From NCBI GenBank assembly GCA_009784185.1, contig WRCD01000002.1, positions 62,001 through 126,000 of the forward strand: DNA of 64,000 nucleotides, written 5' to 3'. A program made the position numbers and the translations under genes. The notes under the pieces are model-generated. The model searched no databases and had not been told where the DNA came from. It saw only the letters and a program-made list of their open reading frames with translations. Of the stretch, positions 6,962 through 62,400 are shown piece after piece (the first letter of the stretch is position 1; each line of letters opens with the position of its first letter). Origin of the DNA: Bacillota bacterium (GTDB taxonomy: Bacteria; Bacillota; Clostridia; Christensenellales; UBA1242).

Positions 6962-7010
6962 GTCGGGTCGCTTTCGCTCCGAACAAATGCTGTCATTGCG
7001 AGCACGCACA

Positions 7011-7058
7011 AAATTCCCCTCTACAAGAGGGGTGCCGAGTTTGCGAGGCGGGGTGTGG
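7011..7058. repeat. Solo subfamily A arm
   Basis: aaattcccctctacaagaggggtgccgagtttgcgaggcggggtgtgg. Confidence 0.85.
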
Positions 7059-24290: not shown

Positions 24291-25367
24291 ATGAAGTTTA
24301 AGCGGGACTATTATAATCCGGAGGATTCCGGAATCGGGTTTGTTGCCGGGGTGGTTGCACCTCAGATTATTATATTTGCCTTAGGAATAATTCTTGTTAT
24401 TGTGGCTGCAATTGCCGGCGTAACTTACAACGAAATTATTACCACCGCACCGGCATTGTTTATTAGTGCGGCACTTGCCGAACTCAGCTTTTATTTTGTA
24501 TATTTAATTATTACAAAAGCCCGCAGAATAAACGGCGTAAAAGCCGCGTGGCTTAATAAAGGCGTAAATTTCAAAACCGTTGCGGTGCTGATTTGTCTTG
24601 GTGCGGCCATGACCGTGCTATTTTCTCCGATAATCGGAATACTGGATTATGTTATTTCGCTGACGGGTTATGAGTTAGCGGGCTTAAATCTTCCGCTTGA
24701 TAATTTTGGATATTATCTGCTGGCCGTTTTGCTTATGGCTGCGCTTCCTGCTTTCTGTGAGGAATTTCTCTTTAGGGGAATTATTTTAAACGGCTTGCGC
24801 AAATACGGAATGTGGGCAAGCGTGCTTATAAGTGCGCTATGTTTTATGCTGATGCACGGAAACATTCAGCAGACTGCATACACGTTTTTTCTGGGCATAA
24901 TGCTTGGGTATGTGGTATACAAAACCCGCAGCTTGTGGGCGGGAATTATATTGCACTTTGTAAACAACTTTATTGTTATTACCTTTATGTATTTGCACGA
25001 AATTGGCGTGCTGGAAGCTGAAGTTATGACTTCTGTCAGTTGGGCAGATGCGGGCTATGCGGTTGGGGCAATGATTATTGGTGCCGGAGCGGTTTGGCTT
25101 GCGGTATGGCTGATTAAAAAATGGAACACACCATCCGTCACTGCGAGTGTCTCTGGAGACGGATTCAAACGAAGCAGTCCCATGGATAAAACTTCTGCCG
25201 AGGGGATTGCTTCGCCTGAAGATGTCTCGGGTGAGTCTCGCAATGACAGAGTGCCGCTAAAAGACTTGTTTAAATCCCCGTTTACGGTGCTGATGTTTGC
25301 GGCAGGTCTTGCTATAGGTTTGGCGCTTTGGTTATATAACTTTATATATAAAGCATTTATTATTTAG
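24291..25367 (+). CDS. CPBP family intramembrane metalloprotease with an in-frame repeat insertion near the C-terminus
   Basis: CEEFLFRGIILNGLRKYG, FMLMHGN, LHFVNNF; multi-TM. Confidence 0.85.
   Translation: MKFKRDYYNPEDSGIGFVAGVVAPQIIIFALGIILVIVAAIAGVTYNEIITTAPALFISAALAELSFYFVYLIITKARRINGVKAAWLNKGVNFKTVAVLICLGAAMTVLFSPIIGILDYVISLTGYELAGLNLPLDNFGYYLLAVLLMAALPAFCEEFLFRGIILNGLRKYGMWASVLISALCFMLMHGNIQQTAYTFFLGIMLGYVVYKTRSLWAGIILHFVNNFIVITFMYLHEIGVLEAEVMTSVSWADAGYAVGAMIIGAGAVWLAVWLIKKWNTPSVTASVSGDGFKRSSPMDKTSAEGIASPEDVSGESRNDRVPLKDLFKSPFTVLMFAAGLAIGLALWLYNFIYKAFII
25137..25252. repeat. Complete two-arm GTCATTGCGAG-type palindrome inside the CPBP CDS
   Basis: gtcactgcgagtg...acgaagcagtccc...ggggattgcttcg...gtctcgcaatgaca. 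Confidence 0.8.
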
Positions 25368-27173: not shown

Positions 27174-27275
27174 AATGAATAATGAATAGTGAATAATGAA
27201 TAATGTCGGGTCGCTTCGCTCCAGGAAGTGCTGTCATTGCGAGCATTTCTATTCCGGATTCAAACGAAGCAATCC
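27174..27275. repeat. Composite repeat: heptamer tract + TCGCTTCGCTCC + GTCATTGCGAG arm
   Basis: gaatgaataatgaatagtgaataatgaataatgtcgggtcgcttcgctcc...ctgtcattgcgagcatttctattccggattcaaacgaagcaatcc. Confidence 0.75.
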
Positions 27276-27445: not shown

Positions 27446-28426
27446 ATGTTTTGTATGAAACACAACCAGTTAGAGCAACAGATTTTAGAGTTCAAAAACT
27501 CCGGCATCAAAGTGTTCAGCATCGGTAAGTCTGTGCTGGGAAGAAACATCTGGTGCGTGGCGGTGGGGAGCGGTGAGCCAAGTGTCATCATTCAATATGC
27601 TATTCACGCCAGGGAGTACATAACTGCTTATTTGGCGATAGAGCATATCAAACTTTCGTTTGGCTACCCCGTCTGTCTCGCTGGCGCAAAATCTAACCAT
27701 TGCCATTGCGAGACGGCACCAATAATTCCCCTCTTGAGAGGGGTGGCACGAAGTGACGGGGTGTGTTTAGCGAAGCAATCCCTTGGGTTGGGTGCAATTT
27801 ACTTTATCCCATGTGCTAATCCCGATGGAGTTGCTCTTGCGCTGGATGGAGGAAGTGACTTCAGCCTATGGAAGGCAAATGCAAATGCTGTTGACCTTAA
27901 CCGCAACTTTGATGCCAAATGGGGACAGGGTACGGACAATAAGTTTGAACCAGCCTCAGAAAACTATATTGGCAAACACGCTCATAGCGAGCCGGAGACC
28001 AGGGCACTGGCGGAATTTACCTTAAAAGTAAAACCCAAACTTACAATCAGTTATCACTCCAAAGGAGAGGAAATATATTACGAGTTCGGACAAACAGGCG
28101 TTCGCCTGGAGCGGGATAGGAAAATAGCGGAAGCTATATCCGGCATAACCGGCTATACAATTAAATCCACGCCCGGCAATACCGGAGGCTATAAAGACTG
28201 GTGTATGCAAAAATTAAAAATCCCCGCCTTGACAATTGAAGTTGGTAATGATATTCTTAACCACCCGATAGGAGTGGAACACCTGCCGGAAATTTTAGCC
28301 CAAAACAAAAATGTGCCGGCAAAGGCACTGGATATTGCAAATAAAATTCCCCTCCTTGGAGGGGTGCCCAAAGGGCGGGGTGGTTTAAAAAGGAGAAAGC
28401 AATGGAAAACGAGAAAGCATTATTAA
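27446..28426 (+). CDS. M14 family zinc carboxypeptidase with a nested in-frame repeat insertion and a repeat-derived C-terminus
   Basis: IQYAIHAREYITAY, CANPDGVALALDG, NAVDLNRNFDAKWG, SEPETRAL, SYHSKGEEIYYEFG, IPALTIEVG. Confidence 0.85.
   Translation: MFCMKHNQLEQQILEFKNSGIKVFSIGKSVLGRNIWCVAVGSGEPSVIIQYAIHAREYITAYLAIEHIKLSFGYPVCLAGAKSNHCHCETAPIIPLLRGVARSDGVCLAKQSLGLGAIYFIPCANPDGVALALDGGSDFSLWKANANAVDLNRNFDAKWGQGTDNKFEPASENYIGKHAHSEPETRALAEFTLKVKPKLTISYHSKGEEIYYEFGQTGVRLERDRKIAEAISGITGYTIKSTPGNTGGYKDWCMQKLKIPALTIEVGNDILNHPIGVEHLPEILAQNKNVPAKALDIANKIPLLGGVPKGRGGLKRRKQWKTRKHY
27723..27767 (+). repeat. Subfamily A arm nested inside a GTCATTGCGAG-type arm within the M14 CDS
   Basis: taattcccctcttgagaggggtggcacgaagtgacggggtgtg between ccattgcgagacggcacc and agcgaagcaatcccttgg. 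Confidence 0.8.
28343..28386 (+). repeat. Solo subfamily A arm at the 3' end of the M14 CDS
   Basis: aaaattcccctccttggaggggtgcccaaagggcggggtggttt. Confidence 0.82.
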
Positions 28427-28874: not shown

Positions 28875-29681
28875 ATGGAAAGGAAACAGGAACAACTTTA
28901 TTATAAAAACAAGAAACACATTGCATCAAGGGTGCAAAAAGAGCCGCAGCCTGATGAGGACAAGATTTTAGCATATCTTAAAAGCGGCAATTGCTTCGTA
29001 GCTTCGCCTGGAATTGCTGATGATATTTTTGCGCCTGAAAAACGCATTCTTGGCCCGTACTGTTATACCGATGGCGAGTGGGACTGGGACAGTGCGCTAG
29101 TCTATTACATAGAAAACTACCACTTCAGAATCTCAGACGAATTTCTTGCGCATATAAAGGCTAAAAACTGGAAGTGTCATAGAATGTCAAAAAAAGAGAT
29201 ATATGGATTTTGCAAGGCAGATTATATGGAAACATTAATGCGTATAGCTCTTGTTGAAGCCAAAAAGGCTGCTGCTGCCGACGAAGTGCCGGTGGGTGCT
29301 GTGGTTGTTAGAGACGGAGAGATTGTTGCGCGGGCACATAACTGTAAAATAAAAAACAACTCGGCATTTGCGCACGCCGAGCTAATAGCAATGACCAAAG
29401 CCGCAAAAAAACTGGGGGATTGGCGCCTTAACGAGTGTACGCTTTTTGTAACGTTAGAGCCATGCCCCATGTGCGCGGGTGCAATAATAAACGCCAGAGT
29501 AAAGGAAGTGGTGTTTGGGGCATACGACCCCAAAGCCGGCTGCTGCGGCACGCTGTATAACTTGCCGGAAGATAAGCGCTTTAACCACCGAGCAAAAGTA
29601 ACCGGCGGAGTGCTGGAAGAAGAATGCGGCAGGATACTGACAGAGTATTTTAAAACGAAACGGAAAAATTCCCCTCTATAA
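28875..29681 (+). CDS. tadA: tRNA adenosine deaminase (TadA) with a ~115-aa N-terminal extra domain
   Basis: TadA core from M at 29227: EVPVGAVVV, AHAELIAM, TLEPCPMCAGAIINARV, GTLYNLPEDKRFNH; unrelated N-terminal region; stop codon lies in the repeat arm. Confidence 0.85.
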   Translation: MERKQEQLYYKNKKHIASRVQKEPQPDEDKILAYLKSGNCFVASPGIADDIFAPEKRILGPYCYTDGEWDWDSALVYYIENYHFRISDEFLAHIKAKNWKCHRMSKKEIYGFCKADYMETLMRIALVEAKKAAAADEVPVGAVVVRDGEIVARAHNCKIKNNSAFAHAELIAMTKAAKKLGDWRLNECTLFVTLEPCPMCAGAIINARVKEVVFGAYDPKAGCCGTLYNLPEDKRFNHRAKVTGGVLEEECGRILTEYFKTKRKNSPL

Positions 29682-29711
29682 GAGGGGTGCCCGCATTGGG
29701 GCGGGGTGTGG
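29664..29711 (+). repeat. Solo subfamily A arm
   Basis: aaaaattcccctctataagaggggtgcccgcattggggcggggtgtgg; supplies the tadA stop codon. Confidence 0.85.
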
Positions 29712-39358: not shown

Positions 39359-39418
39359 GAAAACAGTTGACAACGTCCACAAAAACTCTTACAATCTAAA
39401 TTGTAGGAGTTTTTGTTT

Positions 39419-40186
39419 ATGCCAAGGAAAGCAAGAAAAGATACAGATGGAAAGTTTTTCCATGTAATGGTGCAGGGGATTGGTAAAGAATATATTTTTC
39501 CTGATGACGATTGCAAAGGCTATTATCTATCCTGTTTGAAGAAAAGTAAAACCAAGCTTCCCGCTAAAATACTTGCTTATTGCGTGATGGGCAACCATGC
39601 GCATGTTTTGGTGAGTGTTCAAAATGCGCAGGAGCTAGCTTTGTTTTTAAGGCAAGCAAACGGAGATTACGCCAGATATTATAACAACACTCGCAACAGG
39701 GTGGGCTACGTGTTTAGAGACAGGTATCGGAGCGAAGTGATTCAAGATGAGCGATATTTAATACATTGTGTGGCATACATACACAACAACCCGTTAAAGG
39801 CGGGGTTGGTGGAACGTGCAGAAAACTATAAATATTCAAGCTATGTTAATTACTTAACCAAGAAGGGCATGGTAGATTTTGATGAGGCGGCTAAGTTGTT
39901 TGATACAAGTGAGAGAAGCATGAGAGCTATCATGTTGGAAAAAACCGGAGCGAACTGGCTGGAGCATGACGACAAAGAATATGAAGACAAACACAAAGTA
40001 TTGACTGAATTAATAAAAAAGTATAATATATCGTCAAAGGCATCGGTTAGAAACGAAGAACTTGCTAAGGCGCTGACTATGGAGTTGCAAGAGAGAAGCG
40101 GTGTCAGTTTGCGGGAAGTCGCAATATTATTGGAGGTTAGCCGAGAATGGTTAAGAAGAGTTGTGTCAACACCCCCGTCCCCCTGA
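39419..40186 (+). CDS. REP-associated tyrosine transposase (RAYT, Y1_Tnp/IS200-like)
   Basis: HUH motif YCVMGNHAHVLVS, GYVFRDRYRSEVIQDERYLIHCVAYIHNNPLKAGLV; stop codon lies in the right REP-like end. Confidence 0.92.
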   Translation: MPRKARKDTDGKFFHVMVQGIGKEYIFPDDDCKGYYLSCLKKSKTKLPAKILAYCVMGNHAHVLVSVQNAQELALFLRQANGDYARYYNNTRNRVGYVFRDRYRSEVIQDERYLIHCVAYIHNNPLKAGLVERAENYKYSSYVNYLTKKGMVDFDEAAKLFDTSERSMRAIMLEKTGANWLEHDDKEYEDKHKVLTELIKKYNISSKASVRNEELAKALTMELQERSGVSLREVAILLEVSREWLRRVVSTPPSP

Positions 40187-56211: not shown

Positions 56212-56287
56212 GTTATTCAGCAAAAAGCACCGGAATATACTGTGCTTTTTTGTTTGCGTCGATTTAAGCGCATCGTAAAATTAACAT

Positions 56288-57493
56288 ATGGATATCCGCA
56301 GAATTTTTCTTGTGCCAAACGCTCATAAGCGCTCGGCGGAGTTTTTATTTAATATGTTTCCGTACGGGCGCTGTCTTTTTTTAACAAGCGGTAAAACACG
56401 TGTGCTGGCCGGACCGTTTGCCTGGCAGATGCAAAAGATTGGTTTGCGGCCCGATGAGCTTAACATAACGGGCAGCTTAAGCAGCTTTGATACCGTAAAC
56501 GAAATAGTGGTCTGTGAAAACACACGTGCCATAATTGCATTTGGCACATCAGAACTTTTTAATCTGGCAAAAATGACAGCCCGCGAAAAAAAACTGCCGC
56601 TGATTTTAATTGCGGCGGCTCCGGTAGATGCCAACGTTTTTTGTCCGCACTCTGTATTGATAAAAGACGGGATTGTTGGGGTGTTTGACTCCGCTGCGCC
56701 GGCAGCACTGTTTTATGACGCTCAGCTGGCGGGCTTAACAAACGCAGAAGAGCTGCTGGATGCCGCAATGGGCGTGATAAGTAAAGCCATGCTGTGCTTA
56801 GATAGCAACTGTCATTGCGAGTTGCACCCGAAACTCCTTCAAGCGAAGCAATCCCCTGGGTTGGAAGCACCAATTTCTCGGATTGCTTCGTCTGCAGGCT
56901 TTGCCGGCCAGGCTCGCAATGACAAGGATTTACTCCACGAAATTAGCGGCATTCTTTCTCTGCTGAACAGCAACTGTATAGACAAAGTGTTGTTAACCGA
57001 AAAGATGCTGATATGTGCATATTACGCCTCTGAAATAAATTCAATGTCGCCTGCCGGGCAAATGATGCTGGCATATCTGCAGATAAAGCAAAAGCCCATA
57101 CAAAACCCGGGGCAGACAGAATTGATGTGTGCACGTCTGCTGACCGGTTTGTTTTTATCATACTTAAACAAATGCGATAACATAATAAATATGTGTGATA
57201 TAAAAAAAAGAATAATGCTTACGCAGGTGTTTTTGTCCGAAGAACAAACTGACAAGATGCTGGCAGCTATGCTGGGGGCGGAACAACTTAAAACCGAAAT
57301 TATTAAAGAACGTTTCCTGCTTATTAAAAAGCTTGAAGAAATAAAAGCAATTTTAAACAGCGTTCCCATGCCGGGACAGATGACTATTACAAAGCCTGAA
57401 CTTGAAGCCATGCTTAGCCTTGCCCCGGAGATGACAAATGGAAACAACTTGCTGGTGCTTTTAAGGAATGAAGGACTGCTGGATTTTATTTGA
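56288..57493 (+). CDS. Hypothetical protein, weakly iron-ADH/DHQ-synthase-like, with in-frame repeat insertion
   Basis: 401-aa ORF; N-terminal nucleotide-binding-like region; repeat-derived NCHCELHPKLLQAKQSPG...RIASSAGFAGQARNDKD. Confidence 0.6.
   Translation: MDIRRIFLVPNAHKRSAEFLFNMFPYGRCLFLTSGKTRVLAGPFAWQMQKIGLRPDELNITGSLSSFDTVNEIVVCENTRAIIAFGTSELFNLAKMTAREKKLPLILIAAAPVDANVFCPHSVLIKDGIVGVFDSAAPAALFYDAQLAGLTNAEELLDAAMGVISKAMLCLDSNCHCELHPKLLQAKQSPGLEAPISRIASSAGFAGQARNDKDLLHEISGILSLLNSNCIDKVLLTEKMLICAYYASEINSMSPAGQMMLAYLQIKQKPIQNPGQTELMCARLLTGLFLSYLNKCDNIINMCDIKKRIMLTQVFLSEEQTDKMLAAMLGAEQLKTEIIKERFLLIKKLEEIKAILNSVPMPGQMTITKPELEAMLSLAPEMTNGNNLLVLLRNEGLLDFI
56808..56928. repeat. Complete two-arm GTCATTGCGAG-type palindrome inside the CDS 56288-57493
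   Basis: ctgtcattgcgagttgcacccgaaactccttcaagcgaagcaatccc...cggattgcttcgtctgcaggctttgccggccaggctcgcaatgacaa. Confidence 0.85.
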
Positions 57494-61668: not shown

Positions 61669-62400
61669 TTATTCATTGTCAACATCTTTATAGGTGTTGA
61701 CGAATACATTTGTGCGTTCCTTATCAATTATTGCCCTGTGCATACGCAGTTTTGCTCCGCGGCTTTTTTTCTCTATTCCGTTAAGGAGCTGCTTTACATA
61801 TTCACGCTCGGTATGTTTGTTGGCGGGGCAGGGGTTGTGCAAAACCGGCAGGCTTTTGCTTGCCTTTATGGTTTCGGCTTCGGTCACCAAAATCAGCGGG
61901 CGGATTACGGTAATATCAACTTTATTTAAGTATGTTACTGCGCTGAAGGTAGATATTCGGCCCTCGTATATTAAACTTAAAAAAAGTGTTTCCGTAAGGT
62001 CATCTGCGTGATGCCCAAGGGCAACCTTTGTGCAGCCCAGTTCTTTTGCGGCAGCGTTTAATGCTCCGCGGCGCATTTTGGCACATAAACTGCACGGGTT
62101 TTTTTCCTTGCGCACTTCAAACAGGAGTTCCGCTATCTGAGAATTAACTATTTTGTGCTCAACTCCAAGGCCGTTGCAATAAGCTGTAATTTTGCTAAAG
62201 TCGGTTGCCCCATTGTGCATATCTATGCTTATTGCAACCAGGTCGTACGGAATCGGGTTATACTTAGCAACCTTAGACAGTGCCGTAAGCAAAACCAGGC
62301 TGTCTTTGCCGCCGGATAGTCCTACTGCAATCTTGTCGCCCGATTCAAGCATTTTGTACTCGTGCAGTGCCTTGCGCACCTTTCCTTCAATTTGTTTCAT
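61669..62400 (-). CDS. TtcA-like PP-loop tRNA thiolation protein
   Basis: IAVGLSGGKDSLVLLTAL, CSLCAKMRRGAL, KVALGHHADDLTETLFLSLIYEG, HNPCPANKHTEREYVKQLL. Confidence 0.88.
   Translation of the reverse strand: MKQIEGKVRKALHEYKMLESGDKIAVGLSGGKDSLVLLTALSKVAKYNPIPYDLVAISIDMHNGATDFSKITAYCNGLGVEHKIVNSQIAELLFEVRKEKNPCSLCAKMRRGALNAAAKELGCTKVALGHHADDLTETLFLSLIYEGRISTFSAVTYLNKVDITVIRPLILVTEAETIKASKSLPVLHNPCPANKHTEREYVKQLLNGIEKKSRGAKLRMHRAIIDKERTNVFVNTYKDVDNE

Follow-up and report, generated by a model that had tools for sequence, protein, structure and literature searches.

How two families of repeat DNA came to lie one inside the other within the coding sequence of an enzyme, and whether their nesting records which family is the older, are the questions raised by a locus in a Bacillota bacterium (Clostridia; Christensenellales; UBA1242; assembly GCA_009784185.1). 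The window, that is, the whole stretch of 64,000 nt that was analysed, covers positions 62,001 to 126,000 of the forward strand of contig WRCD01000002.1, and coordinates below refer to it unless another contig is named. The host, a member of an uncultured Clostridia lineage, has a small (1.16 Mb), gene-dense and metagenome-derived genome. In our view, the insert is probably a pile-up of short, REP-like, non-autonomous palindromes in a surface loop of an M14 carboxypeptidase, in which copies that keep the frame are translated and in which the nesting arose once, the resulting composite then being copied.

The M14 gene and its repeat-derived insert

The open reading frame at 27446–28426 (plus strand) encodes an M14 zinc carboxypeptidase of 326 residues, carrying both an insert and a repeat-derived C-terminal tail. 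It is intact and stop-free throughout, and its product matches Pfam PF00246 at E 5.6e-34. The motifs HARE, NRN, YHSKG and EVGN are all retained in the alignment with relatives. The zinc ligands HxxE...H and the catalytic Glu that characterize M14 metallocarboxypeptidases are present, with HARE, YHSKG and EVGN aligning with their counterparts. Identity to distant relatives is 44–56%.

We aligned the protein with 44 relatives from two collections, none of them of the same species or genus. Between HARE and the end of NPDG[V] there are 76 residues here, against a median of 38 (range 34–55) in the relatives, all 44 of which lack the repeat-derived block. The empty site anticipated by the initial annotation was therefore found, but not the stepwise series, as no intermediate carrying A alone was detected among the 44 aligned relatives. 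In the three longest of these (L009, L010 and L023), the same loop holds a common, unrelated insertion of about 17 residues of the RELSMLNKERKS type, suggesting that the site repeatedly tolerates changes in length.

The description of the locus as a repeat within a repeat within an intact gene was borne out. An arm of family A, GTCATTGCGAG...GCGAAGCAATCC, at 27702–27782 is interrupted by an arm of family B, AATTCCCC...GACGGGGTGTG, at 27724–27765, all in frame. The nested B arm had been placed at 27723–27767, one or two bases off, and the insertion, real as it is, proved larger than the 27664–27790 first proposed, extending over about 27649–27791 (plus strand, approximately residues 68–116). 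Given that this 143-nt block corresponds to a net gain of 38 residues, about 29 nt of an ancestral variable linker must have been lost or overwritten. The roughly 38 extra residues are composed almost wholly of pieces of the two short repeat families, and the reading frame encodes the peptides SDGVCLAK and GVARSDGVCLAK.

At the left end of the block lies a third, reversed B piece that the initial annotation did not include, a truncated reverse-strand B2 half (27649–27681, minus strand) consisting of the spacer hairpin, CTACCCCGTC and the start of the inner stem; it contains CAAACTTTCGTTTGGCTACCCCGTCTGTCTCGC and shows 94–100% matches to B dimers elsewhere. The segment AIEHIKLSFG had been taken as conserved M14 sequence flanking an in-frame insert; the location within the M14 frame is correct, but KLSFG derives from this B2 half and is not M14 sequence. 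The next 20 or so bases are assigned to neither family. They are followed on the plus strand by the 5' part of the A arm (GCCATTGCGAGACGGCACCAAT, 27702–27723), the complete B1 arm (AATTCCCCTCTTGAGAGGGGTGGCACGAAGTGACGGGGTGTG, 27724–27765) and a segment at 27766–27791 that comprises the 3' part of the A arm (TTTAGCGAAGCAATCCC, 27766–27782) and the start of the A-dimer spacer (27783–27791). This right end, TTGGGTTGG, was recognized as A-dimer spacer by a 23-nt match to 56842–56864. Without the nested B, the A arm measures about 38 nt instead of the usual 44 or so, which implies that the B insertion cost A some bases or that the target was a shorter A variant.

Further repeat arms lie at the end of the gene and ahead of it. 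A second B1 arm (28345–28384, plus strand) forms the in-frame C-terminal tail of the ORF (NKIPLLGGVPKGRGG...), and a single A arm (27233–27275, plus strand) lies directly upstream. Two B arms at gene ends, this one and that at 29667–29710 in a deaminase-like ORF, supply the upstream ORF with its last codons and stop, or with a tail.

An AlphaFold model built from a 14-sequence alignment has a mean pLDDT of 80.7, with most core segments at 85–97. The insert segment 81–105, between the helix at 59–71 and the strand at 116–121, falls below 50, as does the C-terminal tail (304–326). The top Foldseek match among solved folds is carboxypeptidase T (E 3.9e-20). In the model, the M14 core is thus predicted with confidence, and the insert appears as a disordered loop. 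In its catalytic motifs and fold, the product resembles M14 carboxypeptidases such as carboxypeptidase T and MpaA, from which it differs in a loop between core helix and strand that is 38 residues longer and of repeat origin.

It could be argued that the gene is decaying and that the insert is tolerated since the protein has ceased to be of importance. That a gene so small carries two repeat insertions, one of them overlapping the gene end and the next gene, would be in keeping with this, as would the 19 of 59 genomes listed that gave no match to the M14 gene. However, a 326-codon open frame with all catalytic motifs, the identity shared with distant relatives and the confident core model make decay rather improbable. 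An adaptive role of the loop, for example in regulation or as a binding surface, might be suggested by its retention, but it is quite unlikely considering the low predicted order and an origin in two general repeat families whose copies are inserted in many unrelated proteins.

Two inverted-dimer families and their copies in genes

Within the window, CATTGCGAG occurs 8 times against 0.59 expected. Across the 1.16 Mb genome, the exact A tag GTCATTGCGAG was found 60 times, compared with none for its reversed control, and the B core 277 times, again with none in the control; these numbers are not attributable to chance. Elements were surveyed in stretches around such matches, and A was sampled more fully than B. 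The complete A element is an inverted dimer, GTCATTGCGAG...CGAAGCAATCC-spacer-GGATTGCTTCG...CTCGCAATGAC, whose modal length is 111 bp (37 codons). The complete B element, likewise an inverted dimer, is 110–141 bp long, starting with AATTCCCC and ending with GGGGAATT. As single strands, the A and B dimers form near-perfect hairpins (z -8.0 and -8.5, respectively, one example each), in contrast to the composite on its own, which folds no better than shuffles (z -0.5). Rfam searches over the window returned three tRNAs only, and a literature search by sequence motif yielded nothing relevant.

No target-site duplication was detected above the level of shuffled flanks. On its left, A is mostly bordered by sequence ending in YT, and on its right by sequence starting with AR; this may represent a target preference or a part of the element. 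The fraction of A-arm copies with a stop was 0.07–0.22 in five frames, against 0.26–0.36 in shuffles, and 0.79 in one reverse frame; since these counts include copies in genes, part of the depletion may reflect selection after insertion.

The claim that both families are tolerated in coding DNA holds well beyond the M14 gene, as stop-free frames cross A or B in many conserved genes, in several reading frames and in both orientations. According to family searches, in mnmE, mnmA, rsmE, feoB, the gene for an anaerobic ribonucleotide reductase activase (nrdG-like) and others, the element lies inside one protein family whose matches extend to both flanks, and in mutL and a leucyl-tRNA synthetase-like protein it falls between the two conserved domains. 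Where an A element had at least 75 open codons on either side on one strand, it was in frame and open in 15 cases and not in 2 (p 4e-6 against 1/3), the corresponding numbers at 85 codons being 10 and 0; opposite strands of real genes are among the exceptions. In the window, a 111-bp A-A' dimer (25137–25247, plus strand) is in frame within an ORF with a CPBP/Rce1-like protease domain, and one of 113 bp (56811–56923, plus strand) within a 402-codon open frame (56285–57490) with no Pfam match. Elsewhere, mnmE (TrmE; L103, contig 1, 54000–56300) carries in-frame repeats at three sites, with two B pieces and an A-A' pair in the GTPase region, and mnmA (L073, contig 5, 103300–104500) carries two separate in-frame A arms.

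The strong hairpins formed by the dimers are reminiscent of elements bypassed by ribosomes, and bypassing or RNA excision could remove the elements from the product, making their sequence irrelevant. Such skipping, however, predicts that out-of-frame or stop-bearing insertions in genes should be common, and these are almost absent. The freedom of frame and stops that characterizes ribosome-bypassed hairpins is not observed here, and we regard removal as very improbable. Equally hard to credit is an assembly artefact: repeats are the usual places of mis-joins in metagenome-derived genomes, but at this locus M14-homologous sequence resumes beyond the insert, in the same frame of one ORF, the composite is present at another locus, and there are many other in-frame cases.

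Our preferred reading, accumulation of palindromes in a translated loop, can be outlined as follows. Non-autonomous REP/MITE-like palindromes, both A and B being inverted dimers of arms, would accumulate in the surface loop that links the first core helix to the core strand following it, entering without detectable target duplication and moved by a putative enzyme, possibly of the HUH/RAYT type. As A arms are stop-poor in five of six frames, copies keeping the frame would be translated as disordered loops, while selection would purge the rest. In the M14 gene, this would have left one A arm with a complete B arm inside, flanked by a truncated reversed B half, with translation presumably proceeding through the insert and peptidase activity probably retained.

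A-B composites and the order of events

A followed by B within 30 nt was found at three places in the genome: the M14 locus, window position 6992 and contig 4:118682 (L068). At L068, the 5' part of A, B1 and the 3' part of A are joined as in the M14 gene, in an apparently intergenic position. Identity between the two full composites is 90% over 51 nt; they share identical junctions and a TTGA loop, and their inner sequences differ at several positions. The third is partial (6992–7056, plus strand): by sequence and alignment, the 5' part of A gives way to a B1 arm almost exactly where it does in the M14 gene, without the 3' part of A. Mixed units of other kinds also occur, with an A arm followed by a reversed B half at L067, L075 and L084, and a B arm followed by a reversed A arm at L078.

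Judging from these sequences, a B arm did enter an A arm at some time. The presence of composites at other loci means, however, that the nesting seen in the M14 gene does not place this event there, and the composite may have reached the M14 locus already assembled. The initial annotation had taken the nesting to give the relative age of the two families. This could not be upheld: with an A-B-A composite also at L068 and a partial one at 6992, the order is not readable at the M14 locus, as the nesting could be older than the insertion into M14 or reflect a recurrent hot spot.

Alternatively, the insert could have been built stepwise in the M14 gene, A arriving first and B then entering it, with the composites elsewhere being independent insertions at the same preferred site of A. 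B lies within A at three loci at a nearly identical point, and the internal differences between the two full composites fit this history as well. The identical junctions, the shared TTGA loop and the 90% identity point the other way, and no A-only site was found in orthologs; stepwise assembly is possible but, we think, unlikely. Because the A-B-A unit also occurs elsewhere in the genome, a single nesting followed by copying is the most economical history, and it is the one that we favour; it would rest on two full copies, for which a repeated insertion hot spot could also account. A more far-reaching proposal, which we advance only as speculation and consider doubtful, is that A has evolved a form that suits coding sequence (a length of 111 bp, insertion without target duplication and stops that are few in five of the six frames), colonises core genes and serves as a landing platform for the second family, with composites now spreading as units.

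Dating A against B by their distribution was dropped. Of the 59 genomes listed, 12 contain GTCATTGCGAG and 2 contain exact B, counts in which the present genome is included or set alongside. The wider occurrence of GTCATTGCGAG does not date A because, in three relatives, the copies that were inspected belong to other short repeats, e.g. CGTCATTGCGAGCGAAGCGAAGCAATCCA. In one relative of the same family (G006, L124–L128), short CGTC-tagged CGTCATTGCGAGCGAAGCGAAGCAATCCA repeats form inverted pairs 100–150 bp apart.

Comparison with known systems

The best-known palindromic insertions in frame are those of Rickettsia and of some REP-rich Proteobacteria. The REPs described in PMC3733652 carry a CGTC tag, often TGTC, AT/AT first pairs and CCA-like tails, and they form HH dimers and have intragenic copies. 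The A family shares most of these traits: of the accepted tags (CGTC, or TGTC/CCTC), it shows that with T, which precedes GTCATTGCGAG in most copies; its arms read GTC-AT...AT-CC(C/A); and 24 dimer-like matches have their tags outward, a few of these being loose pattern matches. Intragenic REPs include RPE-4 and RPE-6 of R. conorii, clusters in Thauera and R. conorii encode 43–82 residues, and hybrid dimers occur in S. maltophilia (PMC3733652); A is similarly found in frame in many genes, twice in some. By contrast, the 8–9 bp stem with a 4–5 nt loop typical of CGTC REPs is replaced in A by an arm of about 44 nt with a short ATTGC/GCAAT stem and a long, variable interior. We therefore class the A elements as REP-like rather than as members of that group, since tag, AT pairs, tail and dimers agree but stem and loop lengths do not; in its behaviour, the M14 insert resembles REP/RPE-type palindromes located within genes. 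The CGTCATTGCGAGCGAAGCGAAGCAATCCA repeats of G006 fit CGTC REPs more closely than the A family does. Further differences lie in the host, a small-genome Clostridia member, and in the units, both hybrid and nested, that A forms together with a second family.

With GTAG REPs, BIMEs and their RAYTs, the system shares a GTAG beside a small hairpin in B2 halves, inverted dimers and a RAYT-like Y1 gene, but B arms lack GTAG as their actual end. That gene (39413–40186) encodes the only Y1_Tnp transposase found in the genome, and inverted repeats of its own, GGGGACGGAGGTGTTGACACA and TGTGTCAACACCCCCGTCCCC, enclose it; a short tandem array of the CCCCCTGACCAT type follows. In this survey, which covered the Y1_Tnp class, the flanks were neither A nor B, and the gene was rejected as the mover of either family; in this arrangement it recalls the 'TIRtrons' of PMC3733652.

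Rickettsia palindromic elements (RPE-1 and others; Ogata et al. 2000, via PMC10969869) are likewise palindromes of about 110–150 bp lying in frame within unrelated genes of a reduced genome. Insertion in frame within genes is equally seen here (15 against 2, with flanks in one family), whereas the phylum is another and insertion involves several frames and either orientation. Among the NCBIfam matches at E 0.001 there was no RPE or WPE family, a result that would speak against a sequence relation only if the release holds such models.

That repeat DNA is tolerated inside proteins is thus a known phenomenon, and what is new is the lineage, the involvement of two families and their common nested composite. 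Loops and tails such as those of the M14 protein should be annotated with the caution that they are repeat-derived. In a Clostridia lineage far from Rickettsia and Proteobacteria, two unrelated families with dozens to hundreds of copies, inserts in core genes and composites provide an independent system for testing how repeat DNA seeds new protein loops.
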